Positions 61,774 through 64,000 of a stretch of DNA of 64,000 bases are shown here, one piece after another; the stretch's first letter is position 1, and the number at the start of each line of letters is the position of its first letter. The translations under genes were made by a program, and so were the position numbers. The stretch comes from Lentzea atacamensis (GTDB taxonomy: Bacteria > Actinomycetota > Actinomycetes > Mycobacteriales > Pseudonocardiaceae): assembly GCF_003269295.1 (NCBI RefSeq), contig NZ_QLTT01000009.1, forward strand, positions 329,853 to 393,852, in the 5' to 3' direction. The notes beneath the pieces are model-generated. The model saw only the letters and a list, made by a program, of their open reading frames with translations, was not told where the DNA came from and did no database searches.

Positions 61774-63360
61774 TCAAAGCGCTGCTCGCATCGACTTGTG
61801 CACCAGTGCGTCACAGAGGGCGAGCCAGCTCGCCTCGACGATGTTGCCGTGCACCCCCACGGTGGTCCACTCGCGCTCGCCGTCCGTGGACTCGACCAGC
61901 ACGCGCGTCACCGCGTCCGTACCGGGGTGCTCGGTGAGGATGCGCACCTTGTAGTCGGCCAGCTCCACGCTGTCCAACCAGGACAGGTGCGGCAGCAACG
62001 CCTTGCGCAGCGCCGCGTCCAGCGCGTGCACGGGACCGTTGCCCTCGGCGGTGGCGATGACCCGCTCCCCCGCCACGTGCACCTTGACCGTGGCCTCGGA
62101 CACGATCTCGCCGTCCGAGCGGTGGTCCAGCACGACCCGGTAGGACTCGAGCGTGAAGGGAGGAGTGTCCAGTTCGGACAGCTCTGAGCGCAGCAGCAGC
62201 TCCATCGAGGCGTCGGCGGCCTCGAACGACCAGCCCTTCGCCTCCAGCTCCTTCACGCGCTTCAACGCGCTGCCGACTTCGGTTGACCGGCCGGTCAGGT
62301 CGAGCCCGAACTCACGTCCCTTGAGCTCGATGCTCGCCCGACCGGCCATCTCGGTGACCAGCACCCGCATGTCGTTGCCGACGCGGTCCGGAACGATGTG
62401 GTTGTACAGCTCCGGATCCACCTTGATCGCGCTCGCGTGCAGACCCGCCTTGTGAGCGAATGCTGACGACCCGACATAAGCCTGGTGGGTGTCGGGTGCG
62501 ATGTTCGCGATCTCGGCCAACGCATGGGAGACGCGGGTGAGCTCGGCCAGCGCCCCGGTCGGGAGCACCTCCATGCCGAGCTTGGTCACGAGGTTTCCCA
62601 CGACGGCGAACAGGTCGGCGTTGCCTGCTCGCTCGCCATAACCGTTGGCGGTGCACTGAACGTGCGTCGCGCCCGCCTGAACGGCCGCGATGGTGTTCGC
62701 CACGGCGCAGGACGTGTCGTCCTGGCAGTGGATTCCGACTCGGAAGCCGGTCTTCTTGACGACCTCGGCCACCGTCTCGGCGAGCCCCAACGGCAGCTGA
62801 CCGCCGTTCGTGTCGCACAGCACGACGACGTCGGCGCCACCCTCCACAGCGGACTCAAGCACCCTGAGGCTGGTGTCCGGCGAGAACGCGTAGCCGTCGA
62901 AGAAGTGCTCGGCGTCGAGGAAGACTCGCCTGCCGTGTTCCTTGAGGTGCTTGACGGTGTCGCGCACCATCCTCAGGTTCTCGTCGGTGTCCGTGCGCAG
63001 CGCCCGCTCGATGTGCCTGAGGTCCGATTTGGCCACCAACGTGACCACCGGGGCCTGGGAGTCGAGAAGTGCCTTGACCTGGGGGTCTTCCTCGACCTTG
63101 ACCCCTGCCTTGCGGGTCGCTCCGAACGCGACCAGCTTGGCGTGCTTGAGCTCCAGGTCACCGGCCGCCGCGCGGGCGAAGAACTCGGTGTCCTTGGGCA
63201 GAGCGCCGGGCCAGCCGCCCTCGATGAAACCGACGCCGAGCGAGTCCAGCAGCCGTGCGACAGCGAGCTTGTCCGTGACGGAGTACGAAATTCCCTCACG
63301 TTGGGCGCCATCGCGCAGCGTCGTGTCGTAGACGTGGAACTCGTCGGTCGGGCCGGCCAT
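61774..63360 (-). CDS. cimA: (R)-citramalate synthase
   Basis: A 528-residue enzyme condensing pyruvate and acetyl-CoA to citramalate, giving 2-ketobutyrate for isoleucine without threonine. The HMG-CoA lyase-like TIM barrel (about 1-280) has VYDTTLRDGAQREGISYS, GFIEGGWPGALPKD and GIHCQDDTSCAVANTIAAV. NGYGERAGNADLFAV and FAHKAGLHASAIKVDPELYNHI are typical of the leuA/cimA family, and the C-terminal regulatory (LeuA dimer) domain lies at about 400-528. ATG 63360 is chosen because GAGGAG sits nine bases before it, while the closer ATG 63369 abuts it. It is preceded by a leader peptide and terminator. Confidence 0.92.
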   Translation of the reverse strand: MAGPTDEFHVYDTTLRDGAQREGISYSVTDKLAVARLLDSLGVGFIEGGWPGALPKDTEFFARAAAGDLELKHAKLVAFGATRKAGVKVEEDPQVKALLDSQAPVVTLVAKSDLRHIERALRTDTDENLRMVRDTVKHLKEHGRRVFLDAEHFFDGYAFSPDTSLRVLESAVEGGADVVVLCDTNGGQLPLGLAETVAEVVKKTGFRVGIHCQDDTSCAVANTIAAVQAGATHVQCTANGYGERAGNADLFAVVGNLVTKLGMEVLPTGALAELTRVSHALAEIANIAPDTHQAYVGSSAFAHKAGLHASAIKVDPELYNHIVPDRVGNDMRVLVTEMAGRASIELKGREFGLDLTGRSTEVGSALKRVKELEAKGWSFEAADASMELLLRSELSELDTPPFTLESYRVVLDHRSDGEIVSEATVKVHVAGERVIATAEGNGPVHALDAALRKALLPHLSWLDSVELADYKVRILTEHPGTDAVTRVLVESTDGEREWTTVGVHGNIVEASWLALCDALVHKSMRAAL

Positions 63361-63386
63361 CGGGGTCATCTCCTCATCCGGACAAA

Positions 63387-63418
63387 CAAAAAGACCCCCC
63401 GCGGGATGCGAGAGGTCT
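63387..63418 (-). terminator. Attenuator terminator in the cimA leader
   Basis: As RNA on the minus strand, AGACCUCUCGC (63418-63408) pairs with GCGGGGGGUCU (63402-63392) with two G-U pairs and a five-base loop AUCCC, followed by UUUUUG (63391-63386). It is a classic Rho-independent terminator between the leader peptide and cimA. Its position 27 bases before the cimA start makes it suited to attenuation. Confidence 0.85.
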
Positions 63419-63456
63419 GCGCGTCGGGTGCCAAGGGGCGGCACTACCCGACGCGC
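63419..63456 (-). promoter_or_regulatory. Pause hairpin of the cimA attenuator
   Basis: GCGCGTCGGG (63456-63447 as RNA) pairs perfectly with CCCGACGCGC (63428-63419), with an inner UGCC/GGCA pairing. The 5' arm overlaps the last codons of the leader peptide (RVG and stop), so ribosome position on the leader controls whether it can form. This is the expected geometry of a 1:2 pause structure. Confidence 0.75.
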
Positions 63457-63488
63457 TCGTCGATAATGATGGCGAGGTGCTGAGCCAT
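63444..63488 (-). CDS. cimA attenuation leader peptide (14 aa, Ile-rich)
   Basis: A short frame encodes MAQHLAIIIDERVG and then TAG. Three consecutive Ile codons (ATC ATT ATC) plus one Leu and one Val match the end products of the branched-chain pathways, and its end overlaps the 5' arm of a hairpin that precedes the cimA terminator. The RVG-stop end recalls actinobacterial ilv leader peptides. No strong ribosome-binding site precedes ATG 63488, so initiation may be leaderless or weak. Too short for standard gene finding. Confidence 0.7.
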   Translation of the reverse strand: MAQHLAIIIDERVG

Positions 63489-63560
63489 GTAGCGGATGCT
63501 GCCACAGCTCAGCACGACGTACCAAGCGCCGGGAGGAAATCTCCCACTATCTGGTCACGC

Positions 63561-64000
63561 TCACGCCTGCGACAGGTACTTCGCGAAGGCCTCGATCGAG
63601 GCCGGGTTGCGCGGGCCTTCGACCAGCGCGGCGTACGGAAGTGCGAAGAAGCGCTTGTTCTTGATCGCCGGTGAGTTCGCGAGCGGAGCGAAGCCCTCCA
63701 GGAACGCCTGCTTCTGCGCGGGCGTGTTCGCCTCACCGTCCGCGTAGTCCACGATCAGCACGACGTCCGGGTCGCGCTGCACGACGGTCTCCCAGTTGAC
63801 CGTGGTCCAGCTGTCGTCGAGGTCGCCGAAGATGTTGTCGCCGCCCGCCTTGCCGATGACGTCCTGCGGCGCGGCGTTCTTGCCGGACGTGAACGGCTGG
63901 TCCTGGCCGCTGTCGTAGAGGAACACCTTCGGGCGCGGCTTGCCGGCCATCAGCTTGCCCGCGTTCTCGATCTGCTGCTGGTAGCCCTTGATGAGCTCCT
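63561..64000 (-). CDS. Iron-siderophore-type substrate-binding protein (3' part)
   Basis: The C-terminal at least 146 residues of a periplasmic-binding protein of the FecB/FepB class (PF01497). The sequence includes KPRPKVFLYDSGQDQPFTSG, VIGKAGGDNIFGDL, VNWETVVQRDPDVVLIVDY and NKRFFALPYAALVEGPRN, typical of ABC-type iron or cobalamin importers. The frame remains open through the window end, with residues ELIKGYQQQIENAGKL ahead of the Met at 63950, so the gene starts outside. It ends 73 bases upstream of the cimA leader, on the same strand. Confidence 0.85.
   Translation of the reverse strand, partial: ELIKGYQQQIENAGKLMAGKPRPKVFLYDSGQDQPFTSGKNAAPQDVIGKAGGDNIFGDLDDSWTTVNWETVVQRDPDVVLIVDYADGEANTPAQKQAFLEGFAPLANSPAIKNKRFFALPYAALVEGPRNPASIEAFAKYLSQA

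Follow-up and report, generated by a model that had tools for sequence, protein, structure and literature searches.

Upstream of the citramalate synthase gene cimA of Lentzea atacamensis lies an element that, judged from its sequence and that of its relatives, is very likely an isoleucine-specific, ribosome-mediated transcription attenuator of that gene. By sequence analysis the whole element occupies positions 63488 to 63388 of the minus strand in the window, the 64-kb stretch of the 9.3-Mb genome (G000) analysed here. Citramalate synthase provides a threonine-independent entry into isoleucine synthesis, and if the assignment is right, this enzyme would be under direct Ile-tRNA control in many actinobacteria. 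What appears to be new is the placement before cimA of an isoleucine-only leader of a known branched-chain amino acid (BCAA) attenuator kind. As regards a possible biosynthetic threonine deaminase beside cimA, the best TIGR01127 match in the same genome scored 286 bits, under the 379-bit cut-off, with several matches below it; of 14 control genomes, no more than 5 have a match over this threshold.

The putatively regulated gene, cimA (61774..63360, minus strand), matches TIGR00977 with 613.1 bits against a cut-off of 450 and is 97% identical to cimA of Lentzea terrae (L031); its start codon was picked by Shine-Dalgarno spacing, a GAGGAG read by eye at 63370..63375 (minus strand) lying 9 nt before the chosen ATG. 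The leader frame encodes MAQHLAIIIDERVG in 14 codons (63444..63488, minus strand; ATG 63488-63486, stop TAG 63446-63444) and, just as the initial annotation had reported, contains three adjacent isoleucine codons, ATC ATT ATC at 63470-63462; these candidate sensor codons (minus strand) end 5 nt before the first of two hairpins. That annotation had also placed the last leader codons in a perfect 10-base stem. The pairing of hairpin 1 is indeed perfect, over 11 bp rather than 10, between a 5′ arm GCGCGTCGGGT (63446..63456), which takes in the last leader codons together with the stop codon's T, and a 3′ arm ACCCGACGCGC (63419..63429), both on the minus strand and both defined by folding and covariation. 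At 0 nt from hairpin 1 follows the intrinsic terminator, defined by terminator search and covariation on the same strand, with a 5′ arm AGACCTCTCGC (63408..63418) and a 3′ arm GCGGGGGGTCT (63402-63392) that continues into a U-run to 63388 (together 63388..63402). The 11-pair stem and U-run that had been noticed just before cimA are thus found at 63418-63388, the U-run beginning 32 nt upstream of the gene. The leader had further been called complete, and a leader frame and two hairpins, the second a terminator, are in place; the word nevertheless overstates the case, because 0 nt separate hairpin 1 from the terminator and an antiterminator partner is not apparent.

Folding of 63380-63495, a region that ends before the Shine-Dalgarno sequence, gave -53.9 kcal/mol against -37.97 +/- 3.47 for shuffled sequences (z = -4.59), and 0 of 200 shuffles were as low. 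Between 63200 and 63800, both strands included, three terminator-like sites were observed, two of them in the cimA leader, against 0.2 expected. An extended -10-like motif, TGTGGCAGCAT (63496..63506, minus strand; comparative regular expression), ends 7 nt before the leader ATG, and a weak -35-like hexamer called by eye, TTGGTA (63520..63525, minus strand), stands 18 nt from the -10-like hexamer and is retained in most genus sequences compared. A consensus scan of 63200-63800 returned no sigma-70 promoter-like sites, the proposed -10 being a weaker, comparative call. In an Rfam scan of the whole window, two tRNA genes (RF00005; 57401-57473 and 57602-57673, minus strand) were the only matches above threshold, with no family at the leader site and no T-box model, of the kind known for ileS, among the matches there. 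Four sub-threshold matches at this site, led by ar14 (24.0 bits, E 0.01, cut-off 58.8), were put down to chance. The leucine-codon run of the LEU element of leuA is absent as well, MAQHLAIIIDERVG having one Leu.

For comparison, cimA served as the query against 40 relatives, a collection of 84,980 species (best 80 loci) and 298 genomes of the order. Within the genus, 24 of 24 genomes carry the element. A strict pattern of two or more isoleucine codons followed by a stable hairpin and a T-run occurs upstream of 85 of 137 cimA loci (including the best 80 from the 84,980-species collection), among them all 24 loci of the genus (L001-L024) and all 27 further loci of the family (L111-L137), two sets chosen by cimA alone, the second comprising the top-scoring cimA matches in the order sample. 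Among the carriers are Kutzneria, Amycolatopsis, Saccharothrix, Pseudonocardia, Nonomuraea, Acrocarpospora, Planotetraspora, Pedococcus, Cellulomonas, Cellulosimicrobium, Demequina and Motilibacter, and nocardioids too. From 56 of the 85 pattern loci an alignment (A1) was made, and from it a covariance model (R1); isoleucine conservation in the 85-locus set and in A1 is partly by construction, because the pattern demands two such codons. When 30 of the 52 pattern-negative loci were searched with R1, the element was found before cimA in three more (L026, L041 and L055). In L027 and L029 cimA appears by eye to follow directly on the apparent end of leuB, with no leader.

In the order sample R1 matches 224 of 298 genomes and cimA is found in 222, the two sets not being identical. 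Within the window's own family (f1) the same 50 genomes of this sample have cimA (E <= 1e-150) and an R1 match, and among those listed, G211, G268, G276 and G288 have no cimA at that threshold and no leader match. Position was compared in 70 genomes, namely all 50 of f1 and 20 others with places listed for both, and in 70 of 70 the match is found on the strand of cimA, 22-148 nt ahead of it. No R1 match was obtained for at least six cimA-bearing genomes of the order (G041, G042, G058, G064, G074 and G098), and in two f8 genomes that have no cimA the match precedes ilvB (L206, identified by profile, and L208, by likeness). In a phylum-wide draw under strict filters R1 matches 54 of 396 genomes, not all at cimA; of the 30 loci L138-L167, 19 carry cimA at >50% identity. 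Searched with R1 at E up to 10, the Lentzea atacamensis genome yielded only the cimA site (150 of 16818 candidates scored). A second cimA-like gene, 52-53% identical, occurs in two genomes of the genus (G004:C51:30553-32118 and G016:C9:242565-244130). On this comparative evidence the element is linked to cimA and not to the gene upstream.

Both stems covary. In A1, 96.0% of cells are paired and 11 of 21 pairs show double changes; on each of five measures 0 of 500 shuffles were as good, and control helices slid along the alignment were 40-59% paired. Judged by conservation and covariation, the element is beyond chance. The hairpins abut in 47 of the 56 aligned sequences, and in 5 of the 56 hairpin 1 extends 1-2 bp into the terminator. 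The last two sensor positions are isoleucine in 56 of 56 and 55 of 56 of this set, chosen as it was by a pattern asking for two isoleucine codons, while their third bases vary (ATT 48, ATC 8 at one; ATC 31, ATT 24, AGC 1 at the other). ATT makes up 4.8% of isoleucine codons in the 85 cimA genes and 79 of 161 codons in the isoleucine runs of 61 distinct leaders, a tenfold enrichment that, like the pair counts, treats related sequences as independent; in 53 of the 61 it stands at the last-but-one isoleucine position, and these rare codons suggest a tuning device. The last isoleucine codon lies 5 nt from hairpin 1 in 60 of 61 leaders. The stop codon is mobile, being found five codons after the isoleucine run in 39 of 61 and one codon after it in 17 of 61, where its G opens hairpin 1; two Kutzneria strains differ at this early-stop site, with CAG in L032 and TAG in L033. 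In 74 of the 85 loci a regular expression picks out a -10-like motif 4-10 nt ahead of a start codon in frame, at least five of these matches (L045, L046, L047, L103 and L115) looking like chance. Its proximity to the leader ATG suggests a transcription start at or near the start codon, and the cimA leader is probably a leaderless transcript. The comparisons made show conservation of the frame, the isoleucine codons, both stems, the spacing and the association with cimA, and across families the isoleucine codons, stems, 5-nt spacing and -10-like motif recur with cimA.

Sister leaders with the same order of parts were matched by R1 before ilvB, leuS, leuA and leuB. Those of ilvB have codons such as CTC GTA CTT ATT (gene identity by profile in L155, a fragment just under the cut-off, and L206, and by N-terminal likeness in the others), those of leuS have CTG CTC CTT (a profile match for the truncated frame of L220, likeness for L219), that of leuA has CTG CTT CTC (L153, profile over the cut-off), and those of leuB have codons such as GTA ATC ATC ATC (L160 and L089 over the cut-off; L080, L084 and L088 by likeness). 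In four actinobacterial metagenome-assembled genomes found among the 30 pattern-negative loci searched with R1 (L080, L084, L088 and L089), the Val/Ile leader precedes the leuB-like frame and cimA lies further downstream. A leader of the same layout, MSLGLIIIDGAG, with ATC ATT ATC, is found at L209:1501-1594 in front of an amino-acid dehydrogenase-like gene, whose best profile is ScyB at 345 bits, under the cut-off of 600. The ilvB gene of the Lentzea atacamensis genome itself (L223, G000:C11 upstream of 320200) is preceded by a leader, MQRTLVLVLLRRVDA, whose two hairpins directly adjoin, and a -10-like GATAAC stands a short way ahead of its ATG; this leader was missed by R1. Sensor codons therefore track the gene, isoleucine for cimA, leucine for leuA and leuS and a mixture for ilvB, an internal control that provides the strongest support for amino-acid sensing. 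The proposal in the initial annotation that cimA is controlled by Ile-tRNA charging accordingly gains support, at the level of sequence, from conservation across families together with the Leu and Val codons of the sister elements, which would amount to a series of codon swaps (Ile, Leu, Val) made by nature within a single RNA layout.

Some members of this wider set deserve separate mention. The leuS leaders with LLLT codons lie near 1501-1600 of L219 and L220, and L220, which belongs to the window's own family, places such leaders beyond the Streptomyces species named in 2005. In the ilvB-like leader at L208:1501-1622, hairpin 1 can be extended by eye through GGGTT:AACCC into the terminator 5′ arm, an overlap of a type absent from the cimA leaders. 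At L161:1501-1587 an R1 match has the leader codons GTC GTC GTG CTC GTC ATC GTC; the downstream frame as taken gave no NCBIfam family match.

In the mechanism proposed, transcription would start at the leader ATG, as the -10-like motif suggests, and a ribosome would translate the 14-codon leader. With enough Ile-tRNA it would reach the stop codon, located in the 5′ arm of the first hairpin, and transcription would end at the terminator before cimA; with Ile-tRNA scarce it would stall at the isoleucine codons and polymerase would read through into cimA. This direction of control, with starvation leading to read-through, is inferred from tested ilvB leaders. In the preferred form of the switch, hairpin 1, labelled a pause hairpin in the initial annotation, would be the antiterminator, forming while the ribosome stalls upstream and masked when it stands at the stop codon; lying flush with the terminator, it would hinder completion of the terminator stem. 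Within the attenuator explanation, the case for hairpin 1 itself as a ribosome-gated antiterminator is roughly evenly balanced, and how a flush hairpin would oppose the terminator is conjecture. If ribosome reach is assumed to be 9 or 12 nt, then with either value a ribosome that has arrived at the stop codon hides the 10-nt 5′ arm completely in 61 of 61 leaders, and one at the first isoleucine codon covers 0-1 (reach 9) or 0-4 (reach 12) of the ten arm bases. At the last isoleucine codon the cover amounts, in 60 of 61 leaders, to 4 of the 10 bases for a reach of 9 nt and to 7 for a reach of 12 nt, and this partial cover blurs both this switch and the trp-type alternative considered below.

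A conserved antiterminator pairing was not found by constrained folding, ensemble pairing and mutual information (both run on 56 sequences), pair counts or duplex energies. For 26 of the 85 loci that fit the pattern, folds were made in which the stretch that a ribosome would occupy at the last isoleucine codon was masked; the terminator persists in 26 of 26, and in all folds of the analysis hairpin 1 can coexist with the terminator. Nine alternative pairings were compared with shuffles by duplex energy and none was comparable to the two known helices (mean z -4.27 and -3.84), the strongest being that of the leader codons with the hairpin 1 3′ arm (mean z -0.84, 46% below -1). Pairing of the hairpin 1 loop with the terminator 3′ arm, known from ilvB-II, averages -8.7 kcal/mol and hardly beats shuffled loops (mean z -0.36).

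These results bear on a trp-type switch, which shares the general explanation and the parts list and assigns the roles differently: hairpin 1 would be an anti-antiterminator, a stalled ribosome would mask its 5′ arm, and the freed 3′ arm would pair with the terminator 5′ arm. GCG:CGC pairing of these two arms reaches a mean probability of 0.52-0.54 in arm-masked RNA before the terminator 3′ arm is made, and arm-masked structures average -9.8 kcal/mol (-22.1 to -0.4), which would allow a transient competitor; however, the pairing covaries no better than shuffles do (its paired percentage is reached by 99 of 500 and its covariation score by 80 of 500), it fails to displace the terminator in folds, and with the ribosome stalled at the first isoleucine codon 6-10 of the 10 arm nucleotides stay free. 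The 2:3 antiterminator helix of a trp-type attenuator (1:2, 2:3, 3:4) is represented here by just this weak, non-covarying pairing. A switch of this type is rather unlikely, and in the modelled geometry the ribosome fits hairpin 1 as a gated antiterminator better than as an anti-antiterminator. Two further explanations would dispense with the leader peptide. That the hairpins are a plain terminator of the upstream gene and the short frame incidental receives some colour from that gene, an ABC substrate-binding protein gene on the same strand that ends at 63561, but upstream neighbours vary among lineages while the leader and stems stay with cimA: they include genes for an isopropylmalate-dehydrogenase family protein (L034), a periplasmic binding protein (L042), an opposite-strand O-methyltransferase (L045), a class IV aminotransferase (L063, L110) and an HNH protein (L069), as well as an AbiEi-like and a PAS protein (upstream frames of 16 loci, eight with at least one Pfam family, seven with none and L039 unscanned). 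As it would also leave the isoleucine codons, the rare ATT, the 5-nt spacing and the -10-like motif unexplained, this account is hardly credible.

A structured RNA with a small molecule or a protein as its ligand, and no need of translation, would be in keeping with the GCGC of hairpin 1 and the terminator 5′ arm, which are kept more strictly than pairing requires. It is nonetheless improbable, given an open frame in which isoleucine is kept while third bases are free, codon identity that follows the gene in the sister elements, and no Rfam family that reaches threshold at the leader site. The attenuator explanation, for its part, has to be set against a report, cited in PMC1262725, that codon changes in the Streptomyces coelicolor ilvB leader were without regulatory effect, and the codon-sensing reading therefore calls for caution.

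With the ribosome-mediated attenuator retained as the preferred explanation, a broader reading of the Actinomycetota data may be put forward tentatively, one that we ourselves regard as somewhat doubtful. One modular attenuator chassis, built from a leaderless frame whose sensor codons stop 5 nt short of a GCGC hairpin, itself flush with a terminator, would serve cimA, ilvB, leuS, leuA and leuB and be retuned by codon swap, with no base-pairing antiterminator; the flush hairpin would block terminator completion in the polymerase exit channel and be gated by the ribosome at the stop codon. The question that is sharpened here is how such leaders avert termination with no visible antiterminator helix.

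The initial annotation treated cimA as a gene not known to be under attenuation control, and no description of such control was found in the open-access literature, searched by title and the start of the abstract (subscription journals being mostly uncovered); 'citramalate synthase' combined with 'attenuator' and 'leader peptide', or with 'transcription attenuation', gave nothing there. One paper, PMC12857756, has a single occurrence each of 'cima' and 'leader peptide'. In its Ile-rich short frame, the hairpin overlapping the end of that frame and the terminator before the gene, the cimA leader has the traits of BCAA attenuators of the ilvB-II and ilvB1 kind. Going by the portions of the published accounts drawn on here, it resembles the Corynebacterium ilvB-II/ilvBNC attenuator, a similar two-hairpin layout in which a BCAA leader frame overlaps the first hairpin and the second is the terminator (PMC10272879; PMC11857589); that attenuator likewise precedes a BCAA gene, and in C. 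glutamicum the transcript start adjoins the leader start codon. The Corynebacterium system differs in controlling ilvBNC through mixed Leu/Val/Ile codons, whereas the cimA leader uses isoleucine only, and its published antiterminators overlap or pair into the terminator, mutations in C. glutamicum supporting a terminator and an antiterminator that overlap by three bases (PMC11857589), whereas none was found in the cimA leader.

The Mycobacterium tuberculosis ilvB1 attenuator is also a two-hairpin BCAA leader, at another gene and with LVVI codons. According to the sections of that report used here, replacement of LVVI by AAAA at the bench abolished induction, whereas the cimA leader is known from sequence; the model put forward there has a ribosome that reaches the stop codon prevent the antiterminator and let the terminator form, and has stalling lead to the antiterminator (PMC13236596). 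Among actinobacterial leaders, Seliverstov et al. (2005), as represented by the excerpt available, list those of trp, trpS, leuS, ilvB, cys, leuA and ileS, and cimA is not among the genes named in it; the ilvB and leuS leaders with terminators are two kinds that R1 finds as well, and the leuA LEU element is described as a pseudoknot involving the ribosome-binding site (PMC1262725). For Streptomyces lividans, eight leaders are named in the available part of the account, none for citramalate synthase, and 'cima' has 0 occurrences in the text of PMC8079986. In that same part the S. lividans ilvL peptide, MRTRILVLGKRVG, ends in RVG, like the cimA leader, and the S. lividans leaders are transcribed leaderless, as is proposed for the leader of cimA (PMC8079986).
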